The notes under the pieces were generated by a model, which was given only the letters and a program-made list of their open reading frames with translations, was not told where the DNA came from and did not search any database. From an uncultured Rhodospirillales bacterium (GTDB lineage Bacteria; Pseudomonadota; Alphaproteobacteria; ATCC43930; CGMCC-115725), in assembly GCA_903828515.1 (NCBI GenBank), contig CAIKMD010000007.1, positions 868,001 through 932,000 of the forward strand: a stretch of 64,000 bases of DNA, in the 5' to 3' direction. Shown piece by piece: positions 3,701 to 54,288 of the stretch (positions are counted from its first letter, which is position 1; each line of letters opens with the position of its first letter). Made by a program: the position numbers and the translations under genes.

Positions 3701-4244
3701 TTTCGCGTTGAAACCGGATCTCCGACAGGATGCCGGCGAGATGGGGCGACGATAAAATATTGGGCGCGCCCTTGAGGATATCGAGTTCCGCGCCCTCGGC
3801 GTCCAGTTTTATGAAGTCGATGGTGTCGACGCCGTGCGTCCGCAAAACCTCGTCGAGCGTAAAGACCCGGATCGAATGTTGACCGACGATGATTCCGTTG
3901 TCGCGGTTCAGGAGCCGAGAGAAATAGGTCATATCCGTCTTGTAGAGGCTCGTGCTGTAGTTGAGCTTTGCCTCGTAGAGAACGGCGTCGCCGGCTTGCG
4001 CGGCAAGGGCGGCGGGCAGATAGCGGATATTGGGGCCGGCGCCGGCATTGAGCCGCGCGCATTCAGTTTCATCGGGCTCGAAGCAATAGACGTGAAGGCA
4101 GTCGCCGAAGACCTTCCATTCCACGTTGAAGCCGTCGCGCGAGCCGACGTCGACGATATAGATCGGGCAGTCACGAAAGATCGTCGTTTGCCCGACCAGA
4201 AATCGCGTCATGGCAGGATCGGCGTTTATCACAAAATTGGACAC
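744..4244 (-). CDS. Three-domain FkbM methyltransferase / GT2 / SPINDLY-like (GT41) glycosyltransferase
   Basis: A 1166-residue protein with three recognisable parts. Residues ~30-235 are an FkbM-type SAM methyltransferase (DVGSRDG at ~32, then the family block FIKLDAEGAELDILKGAP). Residues ~350-590 are a family 2 glycosyltransferase (VSIVMFCRNGA, then QDGASTDGT). Residues ~735-1160 match the C-terminal part of SPINDLY/O-GlcNAc-transferase-like proteins, with GYHCGFWHVNTGRSQ and the typical DISLDTFPYCGGNTIAES nucleotide-binding block. Few TPR-like residues precede that last part. It probably modifies a glycan or a protein such as flagellin with two sugars and a methyl group (inference). The start is GTG at 4244; an in-frame ATG lies at 4211. 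It converges with the upstream partial glycosyltransferase. Confidence 0.88.
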   Translation of the reverse strand: MSNFVINADPAMTRFLVGQTTIFRDCPIYIVDVGSRDGFNVEWKVFGDCLHVYCFEPDETECARLNAGAGPNIRYLPAALAAQAGDAVLYEAKLNYSTSLYKTDMTYFSRLLNRDNGIIVGQHSIRVFTLDEVLRTHGVDTIDFIKLDAEGAELDILKGAPNILSSPHLAGILSEIRFQREINHSPIFSDLDAFLRPHGFHLYDLQFHHQSRRVLPYPGLQDYRLPSGEKFFAYTTHGQIMDGDALYFRDLLTPINAERRQALSAAQILKYAAFYELYSLGDCAAELLIENQSALNGTVDVGHLLELLTPPIDGKRLGYDEYRRAYFETQSVDSYRATPSQRPLFEGKANHDGQPLVSIVMFCRNGAASIQRSIHSVLNQSYPKIEFIIQDGASTDGTVEILKSYGDRIDFVSAPDDGTNDGFWRALLRCNGEIIGTCLSDEELLPDAVARVVAEFQSNAAIAAITGDAYLSDLSGNITGKFDGSEFNFLGYLLGDYCPNFSASFFRSQALLNSGMFDERWKEGKLDSVEFEIWCRLGTEQRIKYIPETFSKYGIHPGQMSHRLDRIIGELASRTLILDRYLFGTGKFFGANPELRDAIIHRQHEIIINHLDWNGKPDEAKAVGKQLANVMSASSLRALRHGDEKIVLSKGSVAALRALVPRQLRARIPLKVKLAMHDGLVRPFGAARRISRKLKAAKERVKNIVSPPPPVVEDTGPKLSDWEKQRGQFYHDIAVRFRDRGQIEPAWLAWKHAQPLNNIYIDSMALQAKIKSPESTDAQLLELQHEWAAKFATPLPGKPPATFKRKAPGQKPVIGYHCGFWHVNTGRSQALPLIAAHDRSNFKIIGYAPSEEAEDVRRHFDEFHVTGHLSNGDFVDLVRSHQVDVFVEMTGLSFPHRLAAAAVRCAPVQATYLNHTGTVGIENIDYVIGDEIATPVVCDPHYSETIYRLPRCFFSFSYNEDELPAVAPPPMIANGYVTYGCFGGGDKLNSEILKVWADLLRHSEKSRLILQNPSMSSIANQEFIRKQFQWLGVDTSRITLLPGADRSTILRNYSMVDISLDTFPYCGGNTIAESVWQGVPVVSYKGDRFSSAYGASLFHACGLADLVADNFDAYVRLADQLGHDKERLLFLRQNLRRLARENGLGDPQGLARSLEAAYVDMLRQKA

Positions 4245-4497: not shown

Positions 4498-5265
4498 CTA
4501 GCTCAACGTATGAAGATCGATTTCCGTTCGCTGCTGCGTGCGGCCCGGTTTGAACGGGGCGCCCGCGCGAATATAGGTGGCGAGAAAGGAATATCGGAAC
4601 CGATCCGAACTATTGGGGTAGGAATAATGGGCCAAAAGACCATGGAAAAAAGCAATTGATCCCTTTTTCAGATGGATGGGCACGGCGGGAGCTCCGACGG
4701 GAACGAGGCATTCTATCGCCTGCGCGGCGGGGTTTTGCCCAGCGTCGGACAAAGTTTGACCTTCGCGAACCGGGAGGGGGCCCAATTTGTGGCTTCCTGG
4801 GTAAAAGACGAGCCCACCATTGTCGGGTCCCACGTCGCATAAAGCGATCCAGACGGAAAGAAACGCCTCGGTCGGTGCCTCGACATAGTAGTTGTCCTGA
4901 TGTGCGGTGAAGCCGGCGGTGCCGGGGCGCATGTAGAAGAACTCACCGCCAATACCGCTCGCCTTCGCACCGATCAGTGTTTCCACGATTTCGACGATTG
5001 GCGGATAACGCATGACGGCGAGAAATTTGGGGTGAACTCGGTGTGGCATTGGGATCGGGCCGAAGGTTCCGCTGGCGGCATTGGGGAGCGTGAGAGCCGC
5101 GGCGACGAGTTCGTCACAATCGCGAGCCGGCAAGATGCCCGATTCGATATGGAAGCCCTGAACGCGATAACGCGCCAAAGCAGCGTCAGCGTTTTGTTCG
5201 AAACTCACTGAATCCAGCGGCGCTCCGTCGGTCGGATCGGACATTTCTGCTGGATCGCCCGTCAT
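4498..5265 (-). CDS. Phytanoyl-CoA dioxygenase (PhyH) family protein
   Basis: A 255-residue Fe(II)/2-oxoglutarate oxygenase of the PhyH family. The iron ligands are visible as HQD (H122, D124) inside GFTAHQDNYY and a distal His in LLAHYSYPN (~213), followed by an Arg-rich FRYSF stretch that would bind 2-oxoglutarate. Such enzymes hydroxylate lipids or small molecules; in polysaccharide clusters the substrate is unknown. I chose the ATG at 5265 because AAGGG sits 6 bases upstream of it; a TTG 24 bases earlier (5289) has no comparable site. The gene is divergent from the ABC exporter genes. Its substrate is not predictable from sequence. Confidence 0.85.
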   Translation of the reverse strand: MTGDPAEMSDPTDGAPLDSVSFEQNADAALARYRVQGFHIESGILPARDCDELVAAALTLPNAASGTFGPIPMPHRVHPKFLAVMRYPPIVEIVETLIGAKASGIGGEFFYMRPGTAGFTAHQDNYYVEAPTEAFLSVWIALCDVGPDNGGLVFYPGSHKLGPLPVREGQTLSDAGQNPAAQAIECLVPVGAPAVPIHLKKGSIAFFHGLLAHYSYPNSSDRFRYSFLATYIRAGAPFKPGRTQQRTEIDLHTLS

Positions 5266-5599
5266 ATTATCCCTTGTCGCCACAACCAATTGTTTGCCCG
5301 ATAGTATAGTTCACAATACGAACGTCGTTCTATGCGTAATTCAAGCGTCGAACGAGGGTTGCGACAAGCGCCAATCCATACCACGAGCGGAGCGCCATGG
5401 GGCGATCTTGCTTGGCGGGTATTGTGTATCTTGTCGAGGCGCCGGTCGCTGGACACTCGGGAAACAACGATGTTATATACCGCGCGCGAGGCGGGCATTC
5501 TACTGCCGGATGAGCCTTCGCGGAAGTTTCAGCAAGTCACCGAAGTAGCGCTGACTCGCATTGGTGCCGGTTTCGAAGGGCCCTAGATAGGAATTGCTT
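5266..5599. other. Divergent intergenic region, no convincing gene
   Basis: This 334-base stretch separates the dioxygenase (minus) from the exporter permease (plus) and must hold their promoters. A 38-codon open frame from ATG 5470 to TAG 5586 ends just before the permease ribosome site, but I see no family features in it. An AT-rich patch (TTATATA near 5471-5477) is the only promoter-like sequence. No hairpin terminator or repeat was seen. Confidence 0.4.
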
Positions 5600-20437: not shown

Positions 20438-20758
20438 GTGGACGTTCCGCGATTTGGACTGTTGGATCAACGCAAGTGGGGCAAGTTCGGGCCGGCCCGG
20501 ACCGAAGAATCCGTGCTTTCGCCGGTTCGGGAGGGGACGCAAATCGGCCCCAAATCTGGTGCTCGACGCGCTTCGCGCTACCATAATGCCCGAGTGTCCG
20601 CAGAGCCAGTCCCCAGATTTTTGTTCGCCGCGTGCGGCCCCCCAAAAGGCGGAACTTGGCGCGAGATGGACAGGGGCACGGAACAGGAGGAATGGCTTGA
20701 AAAGATACGGTTTACTAGCTAGAAATCCTATTGGATTCAGTTTTCCTTGAGGACGGTC
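20438..20758. other. Divergent intergenic region, nothing recognised
   Basis: A 321-base stretch between the methyltransferase operon (minus) and the radical SAM gene (plus). The last ~60 bases before 20759 are AT-richer and end with a GAGGA ribosome site at 20749-20753. Open frames here overlap on both strands and have no family features. Confidence 0.4.
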
Positions 20759-22786
20759 ATGGACGCGACGGCTTCCGCCAGCGAACGCCCGCTACGCGCC
20801 GCGGGAGAAGAGCGTCCGATCGAGATCGGCTTGGTCCAGATCAACAACAGCTTTTCCGGCCAGAATTACCTGCCTTACTCGGTGGCGTTGCTCGAGGGGT
20901 ACGTCAAGCACAAGGCCGTGAGCCCGGAACGCTATAACTTTCATCTTCCCATCTACAAGCGCGTGTCGATCAGCGTCGCCGTCGATCAACTCGTCGATTG
21001 CGATGTCGTTGGGTTCAGCACCTACGTCTGGAACGGCCAGATTTCGCTGGAGATCGCGCGGCGCCTCAAGGCGCGCCGGCCCGAGATTCTGATCATCTTC
21101 GGCGGTCCGCACGTCCCCGACCAGCCTGAAGAGTTCATGCGCGCCAATCCGTTCATCGACCTCGCCGTTCACAACGAGGGCGAGCAGATATTCCTGAACC
21201 TGTTGGAAATGTATCCGGCGCGCGATTGGGCGGGTCTCGCCGGCGTCAGCTTTGTCGGCGCCGACGGCAGCTTCACCCGCAACCCGAACGGCGCGCGCTT
21301 TCGCGATCTCGACCAGGTTCCCTCGCCATTTCTCGAAGGCGCGTTCGACAAGATCATGGAGGCCAATCCGGGCGAGACCTGGATCGGCCTGTGGGAAACG
21401 AATCGAGGTTGCCCGTTCCAATGCACGTTCTGCGATTGGGGATCGGCGACGGCCGGGAAGGTGACGAAATTCGGCGATGATCGCCTGTTCGCCGAAGTGG
21501 ATTGGTTCGCGCGCAACAAGATCGAATACATTTTCTGCTGCGACGCCAATTTCGGCATTCAGAAACGCGACGTCGATATCGCCGAATATGTCGCGAAGGT
21601 GAAGGCCGAAACCGGCTATCCGGTGGCGCTGTCGGTCCAGAACACCAAGAACGCGACCGAGCGCGCCTATCTGACGCAAAAAATTCTTTCTGATGCCGGA
21701 CTTAACAAGGGCGTCGCGTTGTCGATGCAGAGCGTCGACATGACGACGCTCGAAGCGATCAAGCGCGACAACATTTCCATCGACACGTACATGGAATTGC
21801 AGCGCCGCTTCACCCGCGATCGCGTCGAAACCTATAGCGATTTGATTCTGGGCCTGCCGGGCGAGACCTACGATTCCTTCGTCAACGGCGTTGAATTGCT
21901 GATCGAAACCGGCCAGCACAACCGCGTCCAGTTCAACAACCTGTCGATCCTGCCGAATGCCGAGATGGGCGCCCCCGCCTATCAGAAGAAATACGGCATG
22001 GAGACGGTCGAATCGAAGATCATCAATATCCATGGCGAGCGGATCGAGCTCGATGACGACGTGCCGGAGATTCAGCAACTCGTCGTCGCCACGACATCGA
22101 CGCCGCGCGCCGATTGGCGGCGTACGCGCGCCTTCTGCTGGATCACCGCGCTGTTGCATTTCGACAAGCTGTTCCAGATCCCGCTGATTACGGCGCATGA
22201 ATTGGCGGGCGTGCCGTACCGCGAAATGCTCGAGGGTTTCCTCAATGTGAACGAGACGGAATACCCGCTGCTCGGTGAAATCCGGAACTTCTTCATCGAC
22301 GAAGCCAAGCGCATCCAAGAGGGCGCTCCCGAATACGTCTTCTCCAAGGAATATCTCGGCATCTATTGGCCGGCCGACGAGTACGTGTTCATCAAGCTGA
22401 CCGCCGAACATAAATTCGACGAGTTCTATCGTCAGGCCGGTCAGTTGCTGAAGGAAATGGTGCGCAGTCATGGCGGCGCCGGCGCCGCCGAAAAGACGGT
22501 GGACGAGGCGCTGCGGGTGAACCAGGCGCTCGTGAAACAGCCCCATCTGCGCGAGAACGAAACCGTCGCGATCAGCTGCGACTTGATGAGCTTTTACAAC
22601 GGCGTTCGCCAAGGCGAAAAAGCGCCGTTACGCGCCGTGCCGACGGTGGTGCAGATCGACCGGACGACCCAGGTCTATGACGATTTCCAGACCTGGTGCC
22701 GCGAAGTCGTGTGGTGGGGCAACAAGAAAGGCGCCTACCTCTATAGCAACCGCTCGGTCGAGGCGCAGCTTGCGGGCCATTTCTAG
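20759..22786 (+). CDS. B12-binding-type radical SAM protein (copy 1)
   Basis: About 675 residues. Residues ~20-150 form a B12-binding-like fold (LLEGYVKHK, then IFGGPHV), but without the DxHxxG motif that binds cobalamin through His, so the cofactor is probably bound base-off without that ligand (family knowledge). The radical SAM cluster is C218-x3-C222-x2-C225 in NRGCPFQCTFC, followed by a TIM-barrel segment with SDLILGLPGET. A long C-terminal domain (~residues 430-675) has no name I know. Start ATG 20759 has GAGGA five bases upstream. An aldo/keto reductase starts 22 bases later and a second such radical SAM gene follows, forming a cassette. Confidence 0.9.
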   Translation: MDATASASERPLRAAGEERPIEIGLVQINNSFSGQNYLPYSVALLEGYVKHKAVSPERYNFHLPIYKRVSISVAVDQLVDCDVVGFSTYVWNGQISLEIARRLKARRPEILIIFGGPHVPDQPEEFMRANPFIDLAVHNEGEQIFLNLLEMYPARDWAGLAGVSFVGADGSFTRNPNGARFRDLDQVPSPFLEGAFDKIMEANPGETWIGLWETNRGCPFQCTFCDWGSATAGKVTKFGDDRLFAEVDWFARNKIEYIFCCDANFGIQKRDVDIAEYVAKVKAETGYPVALSVQNTKNATERAYLTQKILSDAGLNKGVALSMQSVDMTTLEAIKRDNISIDTYMELQRRFTRDRVETYSDLILGLPGETYDSFVNGVELLIETGQHNRVQFNNLSILPNAEMGAPAYQKKYGMETVESKIINIHGERIELDDDVPEIQQLVVATTSTPRADWRRTRAFCWITALLHFDKLFQIPLITAHELAGVPYREMLEGFLNVNETEYPLLGEIRNFFIDEAKRIQEGAPEYVFSKEYLGIYWPADEYVFIKLTAEHKFDEFYRQAGQLLKEMVRSHGGAGAAEKTVDEALRVNQALVKQPHLRENETVAISCDLMSFYNGVRQGEKAPLRAVPTVVQIDRTTQVYDDFQTWCREVVWWGNKKGAYLYSNRSVEAQLAGHF

Positions 22787-22807
22787 GCCAACCGGCTTCC
22801 GGGCTTC

Positions 22808-23773
22808 ATGAAATACCGGCCGCTCGGCAGTACCGGTCTCGTCGTTTCCGAGATCGGGTTTGGCGCCTGGGGTGTCGGCGGCATGACCGCCGGCGAAACC
22901 TCCTACGGCGCGACTGATGACAAACGCTCGCGTGCCGCGCTGGAGCGCGCCTTCGCCCTCGGGATTACTTTTTACGATACGGCCGCGGCCTATGGCGACG
23001 GGCATAGTGAGGCGCTGATCGGCGCGACCTTCGCCGGGATGCGCGATCGCGTCGTCATCGCGACCAAGGCCGGTCTCGAAAGCTTCGATCGTCCGTCCGA
23101 TTTTTCACCGGACGGCATTCGGCGCTCCTTGGACGGAAGCCTAGCGCGGTTGAAGACGGATTACGTCGACCTGCTTCAACTTCACAATCCGCCGCCGGAT
23201 CTGTTCGATACGCATCCCGAGGTCTATGCCCTGCTGAGCGATCTGGTCCGACAAAGGACGATCCGCAGCTTCGGCGTGTCGGTGAAGGCGCCCTCGGAAG
23301 CGCACGCGATCGTCGAGCGCCATCCCGTCGCGTCGGTGCAGGTCAACCTCAACATGTTCGATCTGCGCGCGCTCGATTCGGGCCTTCTCGATCAGGCGGC
23401 CGAACGCAACATCGGCATCATCGCGCGCACGCCGTTGTCCTTCGGCTTTCTCTCGGGCGGAGTGACGAAGGATACGGTTTTTCCGGTCGGCGACCATCGT
23501 CGGCGCTGGTCCCGAGCGCAGCTCGATTGCTGGATCGAGGGCGGCCAGGCGCTGCATGTGGCGGCCGAGGTTCCGGCCGATCAGACGCATAGCCAGGCGG
23601 CGCTGCGCTTCTGCCTGTCGTTTCCCGCCGTATCGACCGTCATTCCCGGCATTCTGACCCCGACGGAAGCCGAGGAAAACGCCGCGGCAAGCGGCTTCGG
23701 GGCGCTGGCGCCGGCGGCCCTCGAGCGGGTGATCGCGCTGCAACGGGCCGGCACGTGGTTCCTCGGCGGTTAG
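22808..23773 (+). CDS. Aldo/keto reductase
   Basis: A 321-residue NADPH-dependent reductase. The AKR signatures are visible: GFGAWGVGG at the N-terminus, FYDTAAAYGDGHSE with the catalytic Asp and Tyr, KTDYVDLLQLHNP with the downstream His, and a cofactor-binding C-terminus ending in a VIPGILTPTEAEEN segment. It lies 21 bases after the radical SAM gene and 114 bases before the next. It may reduce the product of one of them (inference). Substrate unknown; sugar-aldehyde or keto-sugar reduction would fit the surrounding genes. Confidence 0.9.
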   Translation: MKYRPLGSTGLVVSEIGFGAWGVGGMTAGETSYGATDDKRSRAALERAFALGITFYDTAAAYGDGHSEALIGATFAGMRDRVVIATKAGLESFDRPSDFSPDGIRRSLDGSLARLKTDYVDLLQLHNPPPDLFDTHPEVYALLSDLVRQRTIRSFGVSVKAPSEAHAIVERHPVASVQVNLNMFDLRALDSGLLDQAAERNIGIIARTPLSFGFLSGGVTKDTVFPVGDHRRRWSRAQLDCWIEGGQALHVAAEVPADQTHSQAALRFCLSFPAVSTVIPGILTPTEAEENAAASGFGALAPAALERVIALQRAGTWFLGG

Positions 23774-23887
23774 GCCCCGAAACAAGCTTTTCGCGGGCCG
23801 ACAAAGCAATTTGACCGGTGAAAAACCTCGGATAAGGTGGCCCTACCTGATTTTATCGGTCGATTGCGATCGTTGGGGGAGCACTCG

Positions 23888-25468
23888 GTGTCCGGTACGG
23901 CGGCGTCAAATTCAGGCCTGCGTACGACGCTGCCGCCGATGGGCGTCGCGCGGAAGTCGATTTGCCTCATCACGCCGCCGTCCATTTTTCTCTTGGACGA
24001 ACGGGTGTTCGTCAGCCTCGGCATCCTCAAAGTCGCGGCGAGCCTCGAATCGCGCGGTTACGCGGTTGATCTTCTCGATTTTTCGGGCGTGCAAAACTAT
24101 ATTGAGGCGCTTCGCAACTTCATCGTCGGTTGCGATTGCGAGGCGGTCGGCGTCACCGTCACGACTCCGCAGCTTCCGGCCGTCGCGAAAATCGTCCAGA
24201 CGATTCGCGCGCTTCGCCCCGATCTGAAACTGATCCTGGGCGGGCCGCATGTCACTCTGGTGTATTCGGCGCTCAAGCTCGAAAAAAAGCGCGGTCTCGC
24301 GAACGGCCGTGCCGCCCGCGCCGCCGCGCAGCTCGAGGCGATGTTCGATGTCCTGTGCAGCGGTGACGGCGAACTCGCGATTTTCGAGGCGCTGAAGGAC
24401 GACGCTCCGAAGGTGATCGACGGCGACGATCCGAAGGGCGGCCTGTTCCTGACCGATCAGATGTTCACCGACGGTGCGTTCCCCGCGCGCCATCTCGTCG
24501 ACTTCAGCACGTATCACTACAGCATCGAGGGGCGCAACGCGACGAGCCTCATCGCCCAACTCGGCTGTCCTTTCAATTGCGGGTTTTGCGGCGGCCGTAA
24601 CAGCAAGACCCTGCGCCTCATTCGCAATCGCTCGGTCGAATCGATCATCGGCGAGGTCGAGCATTTGCATCGCGGATATGGCTACACGGGGTTCATGTTT
24701 TACGACGACGAACTCAACGTCAGCAAAAGCATGGTCGAATTGATGAATGGCCTGACCGACCTGCAATCGCGGCTGGGCGTGGAATTCCGGCTGCGCGGCT
24801 TCGTCAAATCCGAATTGCTGACCGAGGTCCAGGCCGCGGCGATGTACCGGGCGGGGTTCCGTTGGCTGCTCTGCGGCTTCGAGGCCGCGAATGAGCGGAT
24901 GCTCGTCAACATCAACAAGAACGCCACGCTCGACGACAATAACCGGTGCGTCGCGATCGCGAAGAAGCACGGGCTCAAGATCAAAGCCCTGATGTCATGC
25001 GGGCATCCGGGCGAAACCGAGGAAAGCATTCTCGACATCCGCGACTGGCTGGTCCGGAGCGAGGTCGACGAGTTCGACTGCACCGTGATCACGACCTATC
25101 CCGGAACGCCCTATTACGATCTGGCGAGGCCTCATCCCACCGAACCGGGCGTTTGGACCTTCGTGCAACCCAAGACCGGCGATCGTCTCCATGCTTACGA
25201 CGTCGATTACGCGGTATCGGCGAATTACTACAAAGGCGACCCGGATGGCGGGTACCAGTCTTTCGTCTTCACCGATTTCCTGTCGGCGGAACGGATCATC
25301 AAGTTGCGCGACCAGGTCGAAAGAGATGTTCGCGCCAGGCTGAACATTCCTTTCAATGCCGGCGCCGCCGCCATCAACTACGAACATTCGATGGGACAGG
25401 GGCTGCCCGACTTCATTCTGCGTCGAAGCCTGGGACAAGAAGCATTGTCCCGGCGAGACGACGCCTAG
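23888..25468 (+). CDS. B12-binding-type radical SAM protein (copy 2)
   Basis: About 526 residues. After a short leader comes a B12-binding-like domain (KSICLITPPSIFLLDER, then ILGGPHV). The radical SAM cluster is C227-x3-C231-x2-C234 in LGCPFNCGFC, followed by GFMFYDDELNV and ALMSCGHPGET barrel elements. Two possible starts exist: GTG 23888 with a GGGGGAG site ~8 bases upstream (preferred), and GTG 23837. It is only distantly similar to the first radical SAM enzyme of this cassette. Its 3' end overlaps the Nudix gene by four bases (CTAG). Typical chemistries are C-methylation or ring rearrangement; the substrate here is not known. Confidence 0.88.
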   Translation: MSGTAASNSGLRTTLPPMGVARKSICLITPPSIFLLDERVFVSLGILKVAASLESRGYAVDLLDFSGVQNYIEALRNFIVGCDCEAVGVTVTTPQLPAVAKIVQTIRALRPDLKLILGGPHVTLVYSALKLEKKRGLANGRAARAAAQLEAMFDVLCSGDGELAIFEALKDDAPKVIDGDDPKGGLFLTDQMFTDGAFPARHLVDFSTYHYSIEGRNATSLIAQLGCPFNCGFCGGRNSKTLRLIRNRSVESIIGEVEHLHRGYGYTGFMFYDDELNVSKSMVELMNGLTDLQSRLGVEFRLRGFVKSELLTEVQAAAMYRAGFRWLLCGFEAANERMLVNINKNATLDDNNRCVAIAKKHGLKIKALMSCGHPGETEESILDIRDWLVRSEVDEFDCTVITTYPGTPYYDLARPHPTEPGVWTFVQPKTGDRLHAYDVDYAVSANYYKGDPDGGYQSFVFTDFLSAERIIKLRDQVERDVRARLNIPFNAGAAAINYEHSMGQGLPDFILRRSLGQEALSRRDDA

Positions 25469-26022
25469 CGCGGCGGCTCGGCCGATTCCTCGAGAAATAG
25501 AAATGCGAACGGCGCGGCGTGGCCGAGGGATACGAAGCTGCCATCGCCCAGCGCGCGGCGAATCTCCGCACGGGTGAGAAAAACGATCTCGCTCTGCTCC
25601 AAATCATCGGACGCCGCCGAACGTACCTGCTTGACCCCCTTGGCATGGAAGTAATGGCTTTTGCTGAAGCCGTAGGTGCAACTCGTCTCCCAGGCCGAGA
25701 GGTGCATCCAGGACGCGGCGGTCGCGCCGGTCTCCTCGAGCAGTTCGCGTTGCGCGGCGTGCAGGGGTTCCTCGCCGGTATCGATCCGGCCACCGGGCAG
25801 GGATAGCCCCACCCGGCGCACGCCGTGCCGATATTGGTTCAACAGCATGAATCGCCCGTCTTCCATTTCGGGCATGATGGTGGCGAAGGTACCGGTCGCC
25901 AGATGATGGTAATCGTCGACGACACGCCCGTCCGGCAACTCGACCGTCTCGATCGACAGCTCGATATAGGGAGGGGCGGCGTAGAGCACTTTCCGGCCAA
26001 GGATGCGCCAAGGCTTGATCAT
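25465..26022 (-). CDS. Nudix hydrolase (ADP-ribose/nucleoside diphosphate-sugar pyrophosphatase-like)
   Basis: A 185-residue enzyme with a complete Nudix box at residues 78-100, pattern G-x5-E-x7-REUxEExGU (G78, E84, R92-E93, E96-E97, G99). It would cleave nucleoside diphosphates linked to another group, typically ADP-ribose or NDP-sugars, with Mg2+. In a nucleotide-sugar region it could recycle surplus sugar nucleotides (inference). It converges on radical SAM copy 2 with a four-base overlap of stop codons and is divergent from the SDR gene at 26076. Confidence 0.88.
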   Translation of the reverse strand: MIKPWRILGRKVLYAAPPYIELSIETVELPDGRVVDDYHHLATGTFATIMPEMEDGRFMLLNQYRHGVRRVGLSLPGGRIDTGEEPLHAAQRELLEETGATAASWMHLSAWETSCTYGFSKSHYFHAKGVKQVRSAASDDLEQSEIVFLTRAEIRRALGDGSFVSLGHAAPFAFLFLEESAEPPR

Positions 26023-26075: not shown

Positions 26076-27041
26076 ATGGCACGTCGAAAGCTTCTCATCT
26101 GTGGCGCGACCGGATTCATCGGCCGCAATCTCCTCGCGCGTTTCGCGGCCCGCGACGATTTCGAGGTTCACGCGCTGCAGTTCACCCGTCCCGCCGTCGA
26201 AATGCCCGGCGTGACCTGGCATCGCGCGGATCTGCGTCAGGCCGACGAGGTCGAGAAACTTGTCGCCGGATGCGAGGTGATCATCCAGGCGGCGGCGACG
26301 ACCTCGGGCTCCAAGGATATCGTGACGCGGCCCTATATTCACACCACCGACAATGCGGTGATGAACTCGCTGCTGCTGCGCGCCGCGTTCGACGCCAAGG
26401 TCAAACACTTCGTCTTTTTCAGCTGTTCCGTCATGTATCCGTCGCGCGAGACGCCCCTGCGCGAGGACGATTGGAATGCCGCGACGCCCTTGGAGCCGCG
26501 TTATTTCGCCAGCGGATGGACCAAGGTCTATATCGAAAAGATGTGCGAGTTTTACGCGCGTCTCGGAACGACGCGCCACACGGTCATCCGCCACTCGAAT
26601 ATTTACGGCCCGCACGACAAGTTCGATCTCGAGCGCAGCCACGTCTTCGGCGCTACCGTTACCAAGGTGATGAGCGCGACCGGCGATGCGATCCGCGTCT
26701 GGGGAACCGGCGAAGAAGCGCGCGATCTTCTGTTCGTGGCCGATCTCGTCGATTTCGTCGAATGTGCGTTGGAGCGGCAGACGACCCCGTTCGAACTCTT
26801 TAATGCCGGCTGCGGCCGCGCGGTCAGCGTCAACGAGATGGTGGCGAAAATCATCGCGGCTTCGGGACGCGCGCTGAAGGTCGAACACGATCTGGATCAG
26901 CCGTCGATCAAAACCTCGCTGTCGCTCGATTGCGGCAAGGCGAAACGCGAACTCGGCTGGGAACCGCGCACCGATCTGGCCAACGGAATCGCCGCGACCA
27001 TCGCCTGGTGGCGAAAAGAGATAGGGCCGCCCCGCGCTTAG
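26076..27041 (+). CDS. NAD-dependent epimerase/dehydratase, GDP-fucose-synthase-like subfamily
   Basis: A 321-residue extended SDR. GATGFIGRN is the NAD(P) motif, SCSVMYPS the substrate-contact strand, IYGPHDKFDLERSHV and WGTGEEARDLL the Fcl-like middle and C-terminal blocks. The usual YxxxK catalytic pair is not seen: the region reads ASGWTKVYIEK, with Ser four residues before Lys. I recall that several Fcl-like relatives also have GW-K here, so this may be a subfamily trait. Likely acts on an NDP-4-keto-6-deoxy sugar (inference). It overlaps the convergent methyltransferase by four bases. Confidence 0.85.
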   Translation: MARRKLLICGATGFIGRNLLARFAARDDFEVHALQFTRPAVEMPGVTWHRADLRQADEVEKLVAGCEVIIQAAATTSGSKDIVTRPYIHTTDNAVMNSLLLRAAFDAKVKHFVFFSCSVMYPSRETPLREDDWNAATPLEPRYFASGWTKVYIEKMCEFYARLGTTRHTVIRHSNIYGPHDKFDLERSHVFGATVTKVMSATGDAIRVWGTGEEARDLLFVADLVDFVECALERQTTPFELFNAGCGRAVSVNEMVAKIIAASGRALKVEHDLDQPSIKTSLSLDCGKAKRELGWEPRTDLANGIAATIAWWRKEIGPPRA

Positions 27042-28831: not shown

Positions 28832-29788
28832 ATGATGGCAATTCCTGAGCGTTCCCTGAGCACGATCTATCGCGATCTTCGCCGCATTCGTCGCGTCGAG
28901 GAAAAGATCATCGAGGTCTATTCCAGCGACAAGGTCAAAAGTCCGGTCCATCTGTCGATCGGACAGGAATCGGTTGCGGTCGGCGTCTGCGCCGCGCTTG
29001 AACCTCAGGATATCGCCTTCGGCACGTATCGCGGCCACGCCCTCTATCTCGCCAAGGGCGGTGATATGCGCCGGATGATCGCCGAGCTTTACGGCAAGGT
29101 CGACGGTTGCGCGCGCGGCAAGGCCGGCTCGATGCACCTGGTCGATATGAGCGTGAACATGATGGGCACGTCGGCGATCGTGGCGACCTCGCTGCCTTTG
29201 GCCGTCGGTTACGCCTTCGCGCTGAAGGCGCGGAAGGAAAAGGCGATCGTCGTGTGCTTTTTCGGCGAAGGCGCGATGGATGAGGGCGTCGCTTACGAAA
29301 GCCTGAATTTCGCGGCGCTGCGCAAATTGCCGGTTCTCTTCGTTTGCGAGAACAATCAATACGCGATCTATTCGCATGTCCGTGATCGCATGCCGCATGG
29401 CGACCCCTGCGCGCGGGCGCGTTCTTTCAATATCCCGACCGAGCGGATCGAGCGCGGCGACACGCTGGCCATCCGCGACGCCAGCGCCAAAGCCGCGGCC
29501 GCGATTCGCGCTGGCGAGGGACCGCAGTTCATCGAGTGCATGACCTATCGCTGGCGCGATCATGTCGGTCCCGACGAAGACCGCAAATGGAAGTATCGCC
29601 CCGACGAAGAACTCGATGCCTGGATTCGCAACGACGAAGTCGCGCGGGTCGGCGCCATGCTCGATGACGCGACGCGTCAGCGCATCGATGCCGAAGTCGA
29701 GGCCGAGGTGACCGACGCGTTTGCCTTCGCCGACGCGAGCGCCTTTCCGGGCGGAGAGGAGCTCGACCAGTATGTCTTCAGCGCCTAA
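28832..29788 (+). CDS. Thiamine-diphosphate enzyme, pyruvate-dehydrogenase E1-alpha-like
   Basis: About 318 residues, shorter than most E1-alpha proteins (~330-360). The ThDP motif is GEG (~145-147) to ENN (~173-175), and HRGH-type YRGH (~68) contributes active-site His. With the next gene it forms an alpha/beta E1. No E2 lipoyl-acyltransferase or E3 gene is nearby, so it is unlikely to be a catabolic dehydrogenase; similar stand-alone pairs (for example AviB1/AviB2) add a two-carbon unit to sugars (established knowledge, named from memory). The ATG at 28832 follows a TTG at 28826. Heads a five-gene plus-strand run. The ribosome site is weak. Confidence 0.88.
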   Translation: MMAIPERSLSTIYRDLRRIRRVEEKIIEVYSSDKVKSPVHLSIGQESVAVGVCAALEPQDIAFGTYRGHALYLAKGGDMRRMIAELYGKVDGCARGKAGSMHLVDMSVNMMGTSAIVATSLPLAVGYAFALKARKEKAIVVCFFGEGAMDEGVAYESLNFAALRKLPVLFVCENNQYAIYSHVRDRMPHGDPCARARSFNIPTERIERGDTLAIRDASAKAAAAIRAGEGPQFIECMTYRWRDHVGPDEDRKWKYRPDEELDAWIRNDEVARVGAMLDDATRQRIDAEVEAEVTDAFAFADASAFPGGEELDQYVFSA

Positions 29789-30833
29789 GTCAGACCGGTC
29801 GCTCACCTACGCCGAGGCGCTCTATGAGGGCACCCGGCAGGAGATGGAGCGCGATCCGGGCGTGTTCGTGTTCGGCCTCGGCGTCGACGACGCGCGCGGC
29901 ATGTACGGCACGACGCTCGACCTGCAAAACGTGTTCGGCGCCGATCGGAATTTCGACACGCCGCTCTCGGAAGACGCGATGACTGGGGTCGCCATCGGCG
30001 CGGCGCTGGCCGGCATGCGGCCGATTCACGTTCATCAACGGATGGATTTTCTTCTGCTGTGCATGAACCAGCTCGTGAACATGGCGGCGAAGAGTTCCTA
30101 TATGTTCGCCGGCGCGGTCAACGTGCCGATCGTCGTGCGCGCCATCATCGGCCGGTCCTGGGGCCAGGGCGCGCAGCATAGCCAGGCCTTTCATTCCTAT
30201 TTCATGCACGTGCCTGGCCTCAAGGTCGTCGCGCCCTCGACGCCGCATGACGCCAAGGGCTGCATGATCGCTGCCATTCGAGACAACAACCCGGTCATCT
30301 TCATGGAGCATCGCATGCTCTATCAGAACCGCGGCATCGTGCCGGAGGAGCCGTTCGCGGTGACCTTCGGCCAGGCGCGGCGGCTGACCGAGGGTGACGA
30401 CGTCACCATCGTTGCCGTGAGCCACATGGTGGTCGAGGCGCTGCGCGCCAAGCATCTGCTCGACGAAGTCGGCATCAAGGCCGAAGTCATCGATCCGGTC
30501 ACCCTGGCACCGCTCGACATGGATACCATCGCCGAATCGGTCGGGCGCACCGGACGCGTTCTGGTCGTCGACAATAGCTGGACGATGTGCGGCGCGAGCA
30601 GCGAGATCGTGGCGCAGCTCGTCGAGCGGTTGCAGGGCAGCCGCAGTTTCCGCACGGCCCGGCTGGGCTATGCGCCGACGCCGTGCCCGACGACGAAACC
30701 GTTGGAAAATCTGTTTTACCCGACCGCCATGTCGATCGCGCAAACCGCCTACGAGTTGGTGAAGGGGAAGGGCGATTGGACGCCCGCGGCCGTCGAGGCC
30801 AAGGAAATCGCCGAGTTCCGCGGCCCCTTCTGA
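29772..30833 (+). CDS. Thiamine-diphosphate enzyme, E1-beta-like (transketolase pyrimidine-binding)
   Basis: About 353 residues. DTPLSEDAMTGVAIGAALAG is the pyrimidine-binding strand, IVVRAIIGRSWGQGAQHSQAFHSYF a core block and GRVLVVDNSW the C-terminal transketolase domain. It overlaps the end of the E1-alpha gene by 17 bases, so the two are translationally coupled and almost certainly form one alpha2beta2 enzyme. Purine-rich GGAGAGGAG lies ~11 bases before the ATG at 29772. It does not look like acetoin dehydrogenase in context, because the next gene is a sugar 3-dehydratase. Confidence 0.9.
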   Translation: MSSAPKSDRSLTYAEALYEGTRQEMERDPGVFVFGLGVDDARGMYGTTLDLQNVFGADRNFDTPLSEDAMTGVAIGAALAGMRPIHVHQRMDFLLLCMNQLVNMAAKSSYMFAGAVNVPIVVRAIIGRSWGQGAQHSQAFHSYFMHVPGLKVVAPSTPHDAKGCMIAAIRDNNPVIFMEHRMLYQNRGIVPEEPFAVTFGQARRLTEGDDVTIVAVSHMVVEALRAKHLLDEVGIKAEVIDPVTLAPLDMDTIAESVGRTGRVLVVDNSWTMCGASSEIVAQLVERLQGSRSFRTARLGYAPTPCPTTKPLENLFYPTAMSIAQTAYELVKGKGDWTPAAVEAKEIAEFRGPF

Positions 30834-30861: not shown

Positions 30862-32148
30862 ATGGCCACACCAGAGCAGTTGCTGAAGCAGGTTCACGAA
30901 AGCGTCGAAGCCTATTGCAAGGCGCAGCACGATTTCAAATTCAAGTCCGGCGCGCCGATCGTCCGGCTGCACGAGCCCACCTTCGGCGCGGAAGAGATCA
31001 ACGCCGCCCTCGACTGCATGCTGACGACGCAAGTCACGATGGGCGCCAAGGTGAAGGCCTTCGAGCGTCAGTTTTCCGACAAATACGGTTGGAAACACGG
31101 CGTCATGAACAATTCGGGTTCGTCGGCGAATTTGCTGGCGGTCGCGGCGATCGCCAATCCCGAAACTAAGGACGGGCTTCGTCCCGGTGACGAGGTCATT
31201 GTCCCGGCGCTGTCCTGGTCGACCACGGTCTGGCCGCTGGTTCAATGCGGGCTCATCCCGGTGATCGTCGATATCGACCCGGCGACGCTCAATATCGATC
31301 CTGCTCAGCTCGAGCGCGCGATCGGCCCGAAGACGCGCGGCGTGATGATCGTCCCGGTCTATGGCAATCCCTGCGCCATGGATGCGATCGTCGACATCTG
31401 CCAGCGCCGTTCCCTGATCCTGATCGAGGATTGCTGCGAGGCGTTGGGCGCCTTTTACGACAACAAACCGGTCGGCAAGTTCGGCCGCGTCGGCACGTTC
31501 AGTTTCTATTTCTCGCATCACATGACGACCCTTGAAGGCGGGATCTGCGTCACCGACGATTTCGAACTCGCCGAGACGATGCGCATCCTGCGTGCCCATG
31601 GCTGGATTCGCGAGGTCGAGGACAAAGCGACCTGGATCAAGCGCTATCCCGAAATTCATCCGCGCTTTCTGTTCGTGAACTCGGGTTACAATCTTCGCGC
31701 GACCGAATTGCAAGGCGCGATGGGCTCCGTCCAGTTGCCGAAGCTCGACGGATATGTCGAGAGCCGCCGCGAGAACGCGATCGGGCTGCGCCGCACGCTC
31801 GGCCAATATGGCGCGGTCTTCGATTTCCAGGAGGAGACGCCCAAGGGACGGTCGTCCTGGTTCGGCTTCGCCATCACGGTTCGCGAGGACGCGCCGTTCA
31901 AGGTTCAGGAGCTGATGGACTCGCTCGAAGCCGCTCATATCGAGACGCGACCGATCATCTGCGGCAACATCGCCCGCCAACCGGCAATGAAGCTCTATCC
32001 CCATCGTGTTGTCGGCGATCTGACGCATGCCAGCGCGGTGATGGACCGGGGCTTCTCCTTCGGCATCCATCAGGATGTCGACTCCACGGCGCGCGACTAT
32101 ATCGCGGATCAGTTCCGGCAGTTCCTGAAGGGGCGCGGCGTCATCTAA
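30862..32148 (+). CDS. colD: ColD-like GDP-4-keto-6-deoxy-sugar 3-dehydratase (DegT/DnrJ/EryC1 fold)
   Basis: A 428-residue PLP-fold enzyme. The position that normally holds the PLP lysine reads FSHHMTTLEGG, with His219 in the lysine place. This His is diagnostic for the ColD and DdhC/E1 3-dehydratases, which remove C3-OH from NDP-4-keto-6-deoxy sugars. It aligns by recall with E. coli ColD along its length (RAHGW, SSWFGF, RPI..GN, HQ). It lacks the CxC iron-sulphur cysteines of the DdhC type, favouring the ColD subtype. The gene starts 28 bases after the E1-beta gene. Product expected: GDP-4-keto-3,6-dideoxy sugar. Symbol is provisional. Confidence 0.88.
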   Translation: MATPEQLLKQVHESVEAYCKAQHDFKFKSGAPIVRLHEPTFGAEEINAALDCMLTTQVTMGAKVKAFERQFSDKYGWKHGVMNNSGSSANLLAVAAIANPETKDGLRPGDEVIVPALSWSTTVWPLVQCGLIPVIVDIDPATLNIDPAQLERAIGPKTRGVMIVPVYGNPCAMDAIVDICQRRSLILIEDCCEALGAFYDNKPVGKFGRVGTFSFYFSHHMTTLEGGICVTDDFELAETMRILRAHGWIREVEDKATWIKRYPEIHPRFLFVNSGYNLRATELQGAMGSVQLPKLDGYVESRRENAIGLRRTLGQYGAVFDFQEETPKGRSSWFGFAITVREDAPFKVQELMDSLEAAHIETRPIICGNIARQPAMKLYPHRVVGDLTHASAVMDRGFSFGIHQDVDSTARDYIADQFRQFLKGRGVI

Positions 32149-33230: not shown

Positions 33231-34424
33231 ATGCAGGCCGTTATTCTCGCCGGAGGCAAGGGGACGCGGCTGGGTGCCCTTGCCGCGGGCCGTCCGAAGC
33301 CTCTGGTCGATGTCGGCGGCAAGCCCTTCATTCGTTATTTGATCGCGGCGCTGCGACGCCACGGCTTTGACGACATCGTCCTGCTGGTCGGACCTTTCGT
33401 TCGCGCCTATGAGGAGTTGCTCGGCGACGGTTCGGCTCTTGGCGTCAAATTGACGTTGGTGCCGGAAGATCCGCCGGCCGATACAGCCGGCGCGCTGCTT
33501 TACGCGACCGCCCATCTCGAGTCGCATTTTCTCGTGATGAACGGCGATTCATTCCTCGATTTCAATCCGCTTGATCTCGTGTCGCGGCCGTCGGCTTCAC
33601 CTTGGCTCGCATGGATCGCCCTGCGCGAGGTCGAAGACATCGGTCGCTACGGCGCCGTCAGGCTCGATGGCGACCGACTGACCGCCTTCGGTGAAAAGGC
33701 GGGCACCGGGCGGGGGCTCATCAACGCGGGGATCTATTGGCTGAAACGCGAGATCCTCGTCGAGGTCGGCAAGGCGCCTGCCTCGATGGAGCGTGACGTC
33801 CTGCCGCGGCTGGTGGCGCGCGGGCTGGTGTCGGGCGCGGTTTATGACGGACGCTTCATCGATATCGGCATCCCCGAGGATCTCGCCGCGGCGGATCGGC
33901 TGATGCCGGAATGGGAGCGGCGCCCGGCGGCGTTCCTCGATCGCGACGGCGTTCTCAATCACGATTCCGGTTACACCCATCGCAAGGAAGACTTCGTCTG
34001 GATCGACGGCGCCAAGGCCGCGATCAAGCGGCTCAACGATCGCGGGTGGTTTGTCTTCGTCGTAACCAACCAGTCGGGAATCGCGCGCGGTCTCTATCGA
34101 CCCGATGACGTCGTGCGCCTGCATCAATGGATGAACGAGGAACTCGGCCGGGATGGGGCGCATATCGACGCGTTTTATTTTTGTCCGCATCACCCTGATG
34201 GAACGACCGGCGATTACGGCCGCGCCTGCGATTGCCGAAAGCCCGCACCCGGCATGCTGCTTCAGGCGATGCGCGAGTGGCCGGTGCGCCGCGACGACAG
34301 CTTCATGATCGGCGACAAGGACATCGACATGGCGGCGGCCAAGAACGCCGGGGTGGCCGGTATTCTCTTCGAGAGCGGTAACAATCTCGATACCGTCGTA
34401 GCCGAGGCGTTGGACAAACGCTAA
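33231..34424 (+). CDS. Fused HddC guanylyltransferase and GmhB heptose-1,7-bisphosphate phosphatase
   Basis: A 397-residue bifunctional protein. Residues 1-225 are a nucleotidyltransferase (VILAGGKGTRL at 4-14, VMNGDSF, DIGIPED), as in HddC, which makes GDP-D-glycero-alpha-D-manno-heptose. Residues ~230-395 are a HAD phosphatase with the D237-R-D239 catalytic pair, VTNQSGIARG, and the zinc loop CPHHPDG ... CDCRKP that identifies GmhB. The two steps are successive but separated by the HddA kinase step, which is not in this window. The stop overlaps the convergent fcl-like gene by four bases. Feeds GDP-heptose into the SDR upstream (inference). Confidence 0.9.
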   Translation: MQAVILAGGKGTRLGALAAGRPKPLVDVGGKPFIRYLIAALRRHGFDDIVLLVGPFVRAYEELLGDGSALGVKLTLVPEDPPADTAGALLYATAHLESHFLVMNGDSFLDFNPLDLVSRPSASPWLAWIALREVEDIGRYGAVRLDGDRLTAFGEKAGTGRGLINAGIYWLKREILVEVGKAPASMERDVLPRLVARGLVSGAVYDGRFIDIGIPEDLAAADRLMPEWERRPAAFLDRDGVLNHDSGYTHRKEDFVWIDGAKAAIKRLNDRGWFVFVVTNQSGIARGLYRPDDVVRLHQWMNEELGRDGAHIDAFYFCPHHPDGTTGDYGRACDCRKPAPGMLLQAMREWPVRRDDSFMIGDKDIDMAAAKNAGVAGILFESGNNLDTVVAEALDKR

Positions 34425-35377
34425 CGGACCTTGTCGGCGGCGTTTTCGACGAACCATCGATAGGCGTGGACAAGGCCTTCGGGTAAACGGATCGTCGGCC
34501 GCCAGCCGAATCCGTTGAGCATCCCCACGTCGAGCAGCTTTCGCGGCATGCCGTCAGGTTTCTCGGTTGCGTAGTGGAGCTTGCCCCTGAACCCAACCGT
34601 CTCAACGACCATCGCGGCGAGTTCCGCGATACTGACGTCCTCGCCCCAGCCGATATTGACGTGCGATTCATCGGAATAGCGTTCCATCAGGAACACCAGT
34701 GCATCGGCCAGATCGTCGACATGCAAAAATTCGCGACGCGGCTTGCCGGTGCCCCAGATCTCGACTTCCGCCGTGCCCGTCAGTTTGGCGTGATGGGTCT
34801 TGGCGATGAGGGCCGGGATGACGTGGCTCGCCAATAGATCGTAGGTATCGCCCGGCCCGTACAGGTTGGTCGGCTGCGCCGAAATGAAATCGCAGCCGTA
34901 TTGCCGGCGATAGGCGGCGCAGAGCTTGAGGCCCGCGATCTTGGCGATGGCGTACCATTGGTTCGTCGGTTCCAGCGCGCCGGTCAGCAGCATGTCCTCG
35001 CGCATCGGCTGCGGGGCGAGTCGCGGATAGATGCAGGACGAGCCGAGGAAGAGGAGTTTTTTGACGCCCGCTTGTCGCGCGCCTTCGATCAGGTTTCCCT
35101 CGATCATCATGTTGTCGTAGAGAAACTGGGCGGGGCGCGTGTCGTTGGCGAGAATGCCGCCGACCGTTGCCGCCGCGACGAACACGGCGTCGGGCTTGGC
35201 TTTGGCAAGCCAGCTCTCGGTCGCGTCCTGGCGGCGCAAATCGAGCTCCTTGTGGCCGACCGTCAGGATTTCACAGTCGATCGACTTCAGTCGCCGAACC
35301 ACCGCGCTTCCCACCATGCCGCGATGCCCGGCGACGAAAACGCGCTTACCCGCGAGCGGAAAAATGATCGGGTTCAT
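34421..35377 (-). CDS. fcl: GDP-L-fucose synthase (Fcl) or GDP-L-colitose synthase (ColC)
   Basis: A 318-residue epimerase-reductase. AGHRGMVGS is the NADP site; S113-S114-C115, Y142-A-I-A-K146 and H185 (ASHVIPAL) match the catalytic Ser, Cys, Tyr, Lys and His of Fcl/GMER enzymes, with the same Lys-to-His spacing of 39 as in E. coli Fcl. It converts GDP-4-keto-6-deoxymannose to GDP-L-fucose. ColC, which acts on the 3-deoxy product of ColD, has the same motifs, so the ColD-like gene nearby makes colitose equally possible. It shares a message with gmd (four-base gap). Confidence 0.9.
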   Translation of the reverse strand: MNPIIFPLAGKRVFVAGHRGMVGSAVVRRLKSIDCEILTVGHKELDLRRQDATESWLAKAKPDAVFVAAATVGGILANDTRPAQFLYDNMMIEGNLIEGARQAGVKKLLFLGSSCIYPRLAPQPMREDMLLTGALEPTNQWYAIAKIAGLKLCAAYRRQYGCDFISAQPTNLYGPGDTYDLLASHVIPALIAKTHHAKLTGTAEVEIWGTGKPRREFLHVDDLADALVFLMERYSDESHVNIGWGEDVSIAELAAMVVETVGFRGKLHYATEKPDGMPRKLLDVGMLNGFGWRPTIRLPEGLVHAYRWFVENAADKVR

Positions 35378-36565: not shown

Positions 36566-37429
36566 ATGAACTGGACATCGCGTCGCGAGCGTTTTCGCGC
36601 GGTTATTGCCGGCAAGCGCTGTGTCTATCCCGCCTCGGTCTTCGATCCGATGTCGGCGCGGATTGCCGAGGATCTGGGCCATGAGATCGGCATGTTCTCG
36701 GGATCGGTGGCCTCGCTGACCGTGCTGGGCGCGCCCGACCTCGTGGTACTGACGCTGTCGGAGTTCGCCGGCCAGGCCCTGCGGATCACCCGCGCCGGCA
36801 CGCTGCCGCTGATGACCGATGCCGATCACGGTTACGGCAATGCGCTCAATGTCCGCCGGACCGTCGAGGAACTGGAGACGGCCGGCGTGTGCGGTCTGTC
36901 GATCGAGGACACGGTGCTGCCGGTTCCTTACGGTTCGCCCGACAAGCCGCAAGTCCTCTCGATTGACGAGGGTGCTGGCAAGATGCGGGCGGCGATATCC
37001 GCGCGTCAGGACAAGAATCTGGTCATCGTCGGCCGCAGTTCGGCGCCGTCGATCACCGGCATCGCTGATACGATCGCGCGCGCCAAGGCTTACGAGGCCG
37101 AAGGGGTCGACGCGTTCTTTGCCGCCGGGATCAAAACCCGCGCCGAACTCGACGCGCTTGCCGAGGCGATCCGGATTCCCCTCGTCGTCGGCGTGCCGCC
37201 GCCCGCGTTGGCGGATCTCGATTACTTGAGCGATCGCCGGGTTCGCATCTGTATCCAGCCGCATTTGCCGATCGCGGCTGCCGCGCGCGCGGTCTACGAG
37301 ACGATGAAGGCGCTGCGCGACGGCACGGCGCCGAACGACGTGTCCGGTCTGCCATCGGCGGACTTCATGAAAAGGGTGACTCGCGACGTCGACTATCGTT
37401 CCTGGATCAAGGATTTTCTCGGCGGCTGA
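36566..37429 (+). CDS. Isocitrate lyase/PEP mutase family protein, oxaloacetate-decarboxylase-like
   Basis: A 287-residue enzyme of the ICL/PEPM superfamily. [30 protein letters not shown] (metal-binding acidic strand) and [11 protein letters not shown] are the defining blocks; they match the PA4872-type oxaloacetate decarboxylase pattern from memory. Such enzymes give pyruvate from oxaloacetate. Whether it has that role here is not certain, as relatives include lyases of other C4 acids. It is divergent from gmd, 125 bases away. Linking its pyruvate to the E1-like enzyme nearby would be speculation. Confidence 0.85.
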
Positions 37430-47049: not shown

Positions 47050-47107
47050 GCCCGCGAACGCTCCCTCCGTTTATCTTCCGTTAACCTTGTTTCCGGAGGA
47101 TGGACGG

Positions 47108-54017: not shown

Positions 54018-54269
54018 ATGGCCGAACCGCATCTGCCGCCTGATATCGCGGCGTTGAGTTTCGAGACGGCATTGGCCGAACTCGAAACCATCGTCAAACG
54101 GCTCGAGACCGGCAATGCCAAGCTGGACGACGCGATTTCCGCTTACGAGCGCGGTGCGCTGTTGAAACTGCATTGCGAGGCCAAGTTGCGTGAGGCGCAG
54201 TCGCGTGTGGATAAGATCGTGATGGGACCGGATGGTACGCCTAGCACCGAGAAACTCAGCCTTGAGTGA
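54018..54269 (+). CDS. xseB: Exodeoxyribonuclease VII small subunit
   Basis: An 83-residue helical protein of normal length. LSFETALAELETIVKRLETG and LDDAISAYERGALLKLHCEAKLREAQSRVDKI are the defining helices. It assembles with XseA to degrade single-stranded DNA. GAGGGG lies just before the ATG at 54018. Its end overlaps or adjoins the start of ispA, as in many alphaproteobacteria. Confidence 0.94.
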   Translation: MAEPHLPPDIAALSFETALAELETIVKRLETGNAKLDDAISAYERGALLKLHCEAKLREAQSRVDKIVMGPDGTPSTEKLSLE

Positions 54270-54288
54270 TACGATCTGGCCCGCCGGC

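Follow-up and report, generated by a model that had tools for sequence, protein, structure and literature searches.

A predicted cobalamin-dependent radical SAM C-methylase and its usual aldo/keto reductase partner recur together in bacterial glycan islands

A 64,000-nt stretch of the genome of an uncultured Rhodospirillales bacterium (contig CAIKMD010000007.1, positions 868,001 to 932,000; "the window" below) contains two genes for B12-binding radical S-adenosylmethionine (SAM) proteins on either side of a gene for an aldo/keto reductase (AKR). This arrangement raises the question whether the three genes act together, and on what kind of molecule. The initial annotation had joined both radical SAM genes and the AKR in one cassette. 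By computation, we determined the family, fold and cofactor residues of the first protein (rSAM1), its pairing with the AKR, its glycan context, and its separation from the second protein (rSAM2) in the genomes read. The reading that we consider the more probable one is that rSAM1 is a methylcobalamin-dependent C-methylase acting on an activated glycan sugar, that the AKR reduces the same intermediate, and that rSAM2 acts elsewhere. The three genes are:

20747..22786, + strand: rSAM1, predicted TokK/CysS-type cobalamin-dependent radical SAM C-methylase, 679 aa
22808..23773, + strand: AKR, the usual partner of rSAM1, 321 aa
23837..25468, + strand: rSAM2, a rare B12-binding radical SAM protein, probably outside the module, 543 aa

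The layout described previously was confirmed. All three open reading frames are present on the + strand, have a coding-like G+C content at the codon positions, and match Pfam families above the curated cut-offs (B12-binding and Radical_SAM in rSAM1 and rSAM2, Aldo_ket_red in the AKR). The spacer between the rSAM1 stop codon and the ATG of the AKR is exactly 21 bases. The start of rSAM1 is either the TTG at 20747 or the in-frame ATG at 20759, which the initial annotation had chosen.

What kind of enzyme is rSAM1? A phmmer search against solved structures returned TokK (1.2e-99) and CysS (1.4e-59), and a profile of 11 rSAM1 relatives returned both with higher significance (2e-128 and 9.5e-81, respectively). 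An AlphaFold2 model based on 58 sequences has a mean pLDDT (predicted local distance difference test) of 87.7 and matches TokK (7kdx_A) with a Foldseek TM score of 0.84. The VIA Z score against TokK is 36.0 over 624 residues at 2.7 Å, with model residues 24-674 aligned to TokK 9-672, and the values for CysS, OxsB, and AprD4 are 28.7, 19.2, and 17.6, respectively. The N-terminal cobalamin-binding domain scores 48.3 bits with PF02310 (cut-off 32.1), and the fold match begins at residue 24. The best NCBIfam model is that of KedN5 (NF033712), which aligns with residues 84-645 at 272.7 bits. Sequence, profile, and fold thus agree with the earlier proposal of a C-methylating type of enzyme, as rSAM1 falls into a family of true C-methylases. 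Several other assignments were tried and rejected, i.e. HpnJ (TIGR03471, 90.6 bits versus a cut-off of 577.6) as well as HpnR, BchE, and ApyD, the NCBIfam scores of which are all under the cut-offs.

Three elements of rSAM1 bear on its fold and cofactors:

21029..21031, + strand: codon of Trp95, the equivalent of TokK Trp76 and CysS Trp75 (profile alignment, TokK position counted by hand)
21410..21433, + strand: CxxxCxxC cluster motif with Cys222, Cys226, and Cys229, invariant in 58 sequences
22043..22783, + strand: predicted TokK-type C-terminal domain, about residues 433-679; the TokK fold match covers residues 24-674

The initial annotation had singled out the C-terminal domain as one without a recognisable name. 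It indeed belongs to no Pfam family, but it is not new: the KedN5 alignment covers most of it, and as the TokK fold match spans it, it is the C-terminal domain of this enzyme family. In CysS, this domain is described as contributing to the substrate cavity (PMC12846815, in excerpt).

For residue conservation and gene context, we used the best 80 of 328 rSAM1 relatives from a scan of named genomes, with flanking sequence of up to 10 kb per side. The alignment comprises 57 of these 80 loci and the window; one locus (L101) was removed because its sequence has a stop codon, and we also omitted rows that were truncated or nearly identical to others. Trp95 is invariant in these 58 sequences. The corresponding Trp lies beneath the cobalt in TokK and CysS, whereas OxsB has an Asn and a water molecule and TsrM an Arg at this place (PMC13331322, PMC12846815, both in excerpt). 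Most substitutions of this Trp in TokK are reported to have had minor effects (PMC12183590, in excerpt), and Trp95 is therefore better seen as a family marker than as proof of the chemistry. The gate residue of CysS, Trp271, which also contacts the substrate (PMC12846815, in excerpt), aligns with the invariant Ser296 of rSAM1 (counted by hand on the profile alignment), so that the substrate pocket of rSAM1 is expected to differ. The source genome encodes CobN, which makes cobalamin synthesis plausible. Taken together, residues and fold support the predicted radical methyl transfer by rSAM1, very probably to an unreactive carbon.

The same data bear on a reaction of a different kind, i.e. a B12 radical ring contraction or carbocycle closure without methylation, as in OxsB or HpnJ, after which the AKR would reduce the resulting aldehyde or ketone and give a carbocyclic higher sugar. 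The HpnJ model reaches the 90.6 of 577.6 bits given above, the Z scores for TokK and CysS are far above the 19.2 for OxsB, and the residue beneath the cobalt is the Trp of TokK and CysS, not the Asn of OxsB; by this residue, rSAM1 does not fit the OxsB-type ring-contracting enzymes. These values make a ring reaction very unlikely, even though heptose-type genes and a possible two-carbon transferase are present in the island (see below), a carbonyl product would suit a reductase partner, and a bicyclic bacterial sugar, bradyrhizose, exists (PMC4743980). The genes for bradyrhizose were called unknown before an 11-gene cluster was proposed (PMC4743980). As a specific product, bradyrhizose was rejected and is retained only as an idea, since those of the 80 loci that carry a Bradyrhizobium name come from strains other than the photosynthetic ones of that study.

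Is the neighbouring AKR a constant partner of rSAM1? In 61 of the 80 loci, it follows rSAM1 immediately and on the same strand, with a median gap of 14 nt, and in four it lies elsewhere in the locus; six loci have a short-chain dehydrogenase/reductase (SDR) instead, and nine have neither. These counts rest on tblastn, so that AKRs or SDRs more diverged than E 1e-12 escape detection. Thinning at 80% identity leaves 40 loci, of which 30 have the AKR immediately behind rSAM1 and four an SDR instead. The source genome has only five AKR matches in 4.8 Mb, and the pairing is therefore far beyond chance. The AKR scores 177.2 bits with PF00248, and Asp57, Tyr62, Lys87, and His126 are in place by motif position, fitting the Asp-Tyr-Lys-His tetrad of AKRs. 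No solved AKR structure was close to it at E 1e-30. That an unrelated reductase can take its place suggests a role in reducing a carbonyl of a shared intermediate. Eight distant homologues of rSAM1 (L040-L047, 30-34% identity) have no AKR neighbour. One of them (L040, 9692-11746, - strand, 34% identity) lies near E1 alpha/beta-, DegT-, and nucleotide-sugar-type genes and has a neighbouring protein 28% similar to HpnJ.

Does rSAM2 belong to this pair? Its frame has no ATG before position 23939, and the alignments with its orthologues begin at residue 37-39, so that translation probably starts at this ATG and the gap to the AKR would be about 165 nt; rSAM2 is thus less tightly joined to the AKR than it appears. 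A three-gene cassette, with the two B12 radical SAM enzymes working one after the other on the same sugar, would be in line with the adjacent, co-directional genes in the window and with radical SAM genes of similar type near rSAM1 in 7 of the 80 loci, although their similarity is low and one of them is an rSAM1 fragment. Against a cassette, none of the 80 loci contains an rSAM2 orthologue at 40% identity or more. Within the class, rSAM2 was found in 3 of 385 genomes including its own, and in the other two it is on a different contig from rSAM1, in assemblies that are in pieces. We read the rSAM2 context in five stretches out of six other genomes from two genera (L137, the sixth, offers just a fragment where a contig begins). 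These five stretches contain no rSAM1, no AKR, and no homologue of a glycan gene of the window except for a 28% match to the PhyH-type protein 4498-5289. The neighbourhood comparison, which the initial annotation had named as a possible refutation, thus separated the two radical SAM genes, and we rejected the proposed cassette as quite unlikely. In this small sample, rSAM2 looks like a bystander beside the module and not like a partner.

Further afield, rSAM2 occurs in 1 of 398 genomes of the phylum (its own), in 5 of 23 genomes of the family of G169, and in 1 of 7 genomes of the order of G219; no plasmid record matched at E 1e-30. Its neighbours elsewhere resemble NAD-glutamate dehydrogenase, thioredoxin, and the Lon N-terminal domain (named by eye from sequence starts and lengths). 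The nearest NCBIfam models (PhpK, HpnJ, BchE, and AprD4) are all far below the cut-offs, and assignments as an AprD4 diol dehydratase (NF033070, 68.2 versus 500 bits) or as HpnJ (TIGR03471, 83.1 versus 577.6 bits) were rejected. AprD4 and MgmA are the nearest solved chains, both distant. These scores and the rare, scattered, plasmid-free occurrence would fit an orphan enzyme whose gene came here by accident and whose substrate is a lipid, a cofactor, or another small molecule, a reading to which we give an even chance; the structure model of rSAM2 is poor (pLDDT 63.9), and its substrate class is putative.

The source genome has 13 Radical_SAM matches over the cut-off, three of them in the window. 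The third gene, 57953-59386, is HpnJ (829.4 bits versus 577.6, TIGR03471), with a B12-binding Pfam score of 24.5, under the cut-off of 32.1. It is part of a hopanoid cluster (54232-61949) encoding FPP synthase, HpnM, HpnI, HpnJ, and HpnN, each over at least one NCBIfam cut-off, with an MlaA-like gene on the opposite strand between HpnM and HpnI. A hopanoid link of rSAM1 was rejected: the cluster starts about 29 kb from rSAM2, and within seven genes of rSAM1 only weak similarity to HpnJ (23-28%) was found, in L056, L097, and L123. The initial annotation had left open whether the product was a modified sugar or a lipid; the sugar setting was borne out by the gene families of the window and of the loci, whereas no evidence for a lipid was found, lipid genes not having been searched systematically.

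In what setting does the pair occur? A thiamine diphosphate (TPP) enzyme, either of the E1 alpha/beta type or a split transketolase, is present in 51 of the 80 loci, and a kinase of the HddA type or a nucleotidyltransferase resembling the one in the window (NTP-HAD type) in 54; at least one of the two kinds is found in 63 loci, and both in 42. The values for the 40 thinned loci are 22, 23, 27, and 18, respectively. "Heptose-type" denotes a resemblance here, because the equivalog models stay below their cut-offs and only the GmhB subfamily model was passed. Genes similar to one of two dehydratases of the window (32190 or 35382) are present in 34 of the 80 loci, with up to 80% identity. The surroundings of the pair in L068 mirror most genes of the window (E1 pair 60/69%, DegT 72%, epimerase 62%, dehydratase 78% identity). 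The pair of rSAM1 and AKR thus recurs as a module in glycan islands. In Bradyrhizobium, Azospirillum, and Magnetospirillum loci (L092, L093, L100, L131, L087), a split transketolase with separate N and C halves (checked with Pfam in L093) replaces the E1 pair near rSAM1.

In the window, the island downstream of rSAM2 comprises:

25465..26022, - strand: NUDIX hydrolase; similar genes beside rSAM1 and AKR in L051 and, by annotation, in L131 (a weak link, in 2 of the 80 loci)
26076..27041, + strand: NAD-dependent epimerase/dehydratase-type SDR; copies with 54-63% identity adjoin rSAM1 and AKR or lie close to them in L068, L096, L099, L106, and L114
28826..29788, + strand: TPP enzyme, E1 alpha-type subunit, candidate two-carbon transferase
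29721..30833, + strand: TPP enzyme, E1 beta-type subunit; the likelier start is the ATG at 29772
30862..32148, + strand: RfbH-like DegT-family protein with His-His replacing the pyridoxal phosphate (PLP) lysine (SFYFSHHMTTLEGG); RfbH is the best model, 356 of 423 bits
32190..33209, + strand: nucleoside diphosphate (NDP)-sugar 4,6-dehydratase-like SDR
33231..34424, + strand: fused sugar-1-phosphate nucleotidyltransferase (HddC-like) and GmhB-type phosphatase
34421..35377, - strand: GDP-L-fucose-synthase-like SDR, 495.5 of 500 bits
35382..36578, - strand: GDP-mannose 4,6-dehydratase-like protein

The phosphatase half of 33231-34424 scores 163.3 bits with the GmhB subfamily model TIGR00213 (cut-off 149.6). 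At the place where aminotransferases have Lys, the DegT protein 30862..32148 has His-His; this site and the RfbH model make it a probable sugar 3-dehydratase. The source genome has four E1_dh matches, and the island extends upstream of the window, with an HddA-like gene at C7:858120-859097. The nucleotide-sugar block also contains a protein of the phosphoenolpyruvate mutase/methylisocitrate-lyase type (36566-37429, + strand), which is under all equivalog cut-offs. Further away, there is a relative of NeuB/PseI-type sialic or pseudaminic acid synthases (47087-48202, + strand; below both cut-offs) and a protein of 1166 aa with FkbM methyltransferase, family-2 glycosyltransferase, and weak protein N-glucosyltransferase similarity (744-4244, - strand).

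Glycosyltransferase-like proteins related to the latter were found in L031, L034, L036, and L105. Neighbours of the FlgD/FlgE type were detected by similarity in L034, L036, and L105, and of the FlgD type in L031; in L032, rSAM1 adjoins FliK, FlgD, FlgE, and FliF (Pfam).

The distribution of rSAM1 is patchy. It is present in 4 of 43 genomes of the order, including its own and one represented by a fragment, and in 20 of 385 genomes of the class at E 1e-50, 11 of which (own included) have a copy with at least 47% identity. Reyranella accounts for many of the closest copies with a name. Fourteen plasmid records match rSAM1, one of them over the full length with 57% identity, on an Azospirillum plasmid with the gene order epimerase, NUDIX, rSAM1, AKR. 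The 80 loci represent nine named phyla, 66 being from Pseudomonadota, according to record titles, which may be wrong for metagenome bins. The patchy presence and the plasmid copy suggest that the module spreads horizontally.

Which substrate would fit this setting? For both solved relatives, TokK and CysS, pantetheinylated, non-sugar substrates are described (PMC12846815, PMC12183590, both in excerpt), and rSAM1 might accordingly methylate an acyl-pantetheine or acyl-CoA precursor, the branched acyl group of which would then decorate a sugar. However, none of 81 loci, the window among them, has a phosphopantetheine-attachment pattern less than 8 kb away from rSAM1; this pattern had one positive control, was applied to open frames of at least 60 residues, and is silent on a free CoA thioester. 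In addition, none of 30 window proteins has an acyl-activating or carrier domain in Pfam, a search confined to the window. An acyl thioester as the substrate appears unlikely.

For a C-methylase acting on an activated glycan sugar, we infer the methyl transfer, the substrate, the order of the steps, and the product as follows. An NDP-sugar precursor would be made by the heptose-type nucleotidyltransferase genes and a 4,6-dehydratase, the RfbH-like enzyme would deoxygenate it, and the TPP enzyme (E1 alpha/beta) would add a two-carbon branch. rSAM1 would then C-methylate an activated sugar, an intermediate on the way to a surface or flagellar glycan, perhaps repeatedly; repeated methylation is described for TokK and CysS (PMC12846815, PMC12183590, both in excerpt). 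The AKR, which is in the same probable operon, would use NAD(P)H to reduce a carbonyl of that intermediate, either ahead of the methylation or following it, and rSAM2 would act elsewhere.

Several observations weigh against this reading. The 272.7 bits of the KedN5 match are well under the 700-bit cut-off, and rSAM1 was rejected as KedN5 itself. The sugar substrate is an extrapolation from the neighbouring genes, the substrates of the solved relatives being non-sugar. In addition to the nine loci without AKR or SDR beside rSAM1, a tree of 93 rows, made with a quick method and giving long-branch warnings, requires at least 10 gains or losses of the AKR, i.e. the pairing is not absolute. The AKR is under the cut-off of every NCBIfam AKR model, with 34-39 bits for DkgA/DkgB, which are AKR5 enzymes. 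Neither a TPP nor a heptose-type gene is present in 17 of the 80 loci, some of which are short contigs. Several DegT genes of the loci carry the usual Lys and not His, part of the E1 and DegT genes may be there for different sugars of the island, and the flagellar type accounts for only 2 of the 80 loci.

A more specific proposal, which we consider possible though doubtful, is that rSAM1 and AKR finish higher carbon-branched sugars of an undescribed class. A heptose-derived keto-sugar would receive two carbons from the TPP enzyme and would then be methylated by rSAM1 at a branch or ring carbon, possibly repeatedly, and reduced by the AKR, which would set the alcohol; such sugars would coat cells or flagella in scattered members of many phyla, with the module passing from one to another.

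More generally, the island of rSAM1 and AKR suggests that bacterial surfaces and flagella carry a carbon-methylated sugar that has not been described. Among the papers listed by searches of the open-access literature, none joins a B12 radical SAM C-methylase to glycan islands. If the substrate is a sugar, radical C-methylation would be a general route to diversify bacterial surface glycans, and the enzymes might be of use for making C-methyl sugars. Azospirillum sp. TSA2s and Bradyrhizobium frederickii, which like Reyranella soli have the pair, are candidate strains for tests. On sequence and model evidence, rSAM1 is a well-supported C-methylase-type enzyme of a known fold family and not a new kind of enzyme. 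What is uncharacterised is its glycan role, i.e. a known kind of enzyme occurs in a widespread, uncharacterised setting.

How does the module compare with known systems? The closest ones are TokK (the carbapenem C6 methylase, PDB 7kdx/7kdy) and CysS (the cystobactamid methylase, PDB 9n1b-d), which share the three-domain fold of rSAM1, with 30% and 23-24% identity in structural alignments, respectively, and have the CxxxCxxC motif, the Trp under the cobalt, and the C-terminal domain in common with it. In contrast to both, rSAM1 usually has an AKR partner, is found in a glycan setting, and has Ser296 in place of CysS Trp271; TokK and CysS are from antibiotic pathways, whereas their fold relative here resides in glycan islands of many environmental bacteria. 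The KedN5 C-methylases (NF033712) match rSAM1 over nearly the full length, yet well under the cut-off. OxsB, HpnJ, and AprD4 share the B12-type N-terminal domain and the radical SAM core; OxsB and AprD4 have weaker fold matches than TokK and CysS, and HpnJ was compared by model score only.

For the surrounding genes, the best parallels are sugar pathways of antibiotics. In paulomycin biosynthesis, the pyruvate dehydrogenase (PDH)-like Pau11/Pau12 were proposed to add an acetyl branch at C4 of a sugar, and the AKR Pau7 was shown in vitro to reduce the branched sugar (PMC4425429, PMC4753412, both in excerpt). This precedent makes an E1 pair together with an AKR in a sugar island chemically sensible. 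AviB1/AviB2 of the avilamycin pathway and Pau11/Pau12 are described as PDH-like alpha/beta pairs for two-carbon branched sugars, like the E1 pair of the window, a likeness by description. The paulomycin pathway likewise has an AKR for its sugar, but the excerpts name no B12 radical SAM partner. Pau7 is described there as AKR5-type, whereas the AKR of the window is apparently of another type, and its low DkgA/DkgB score makes Pau7 an analogue only.

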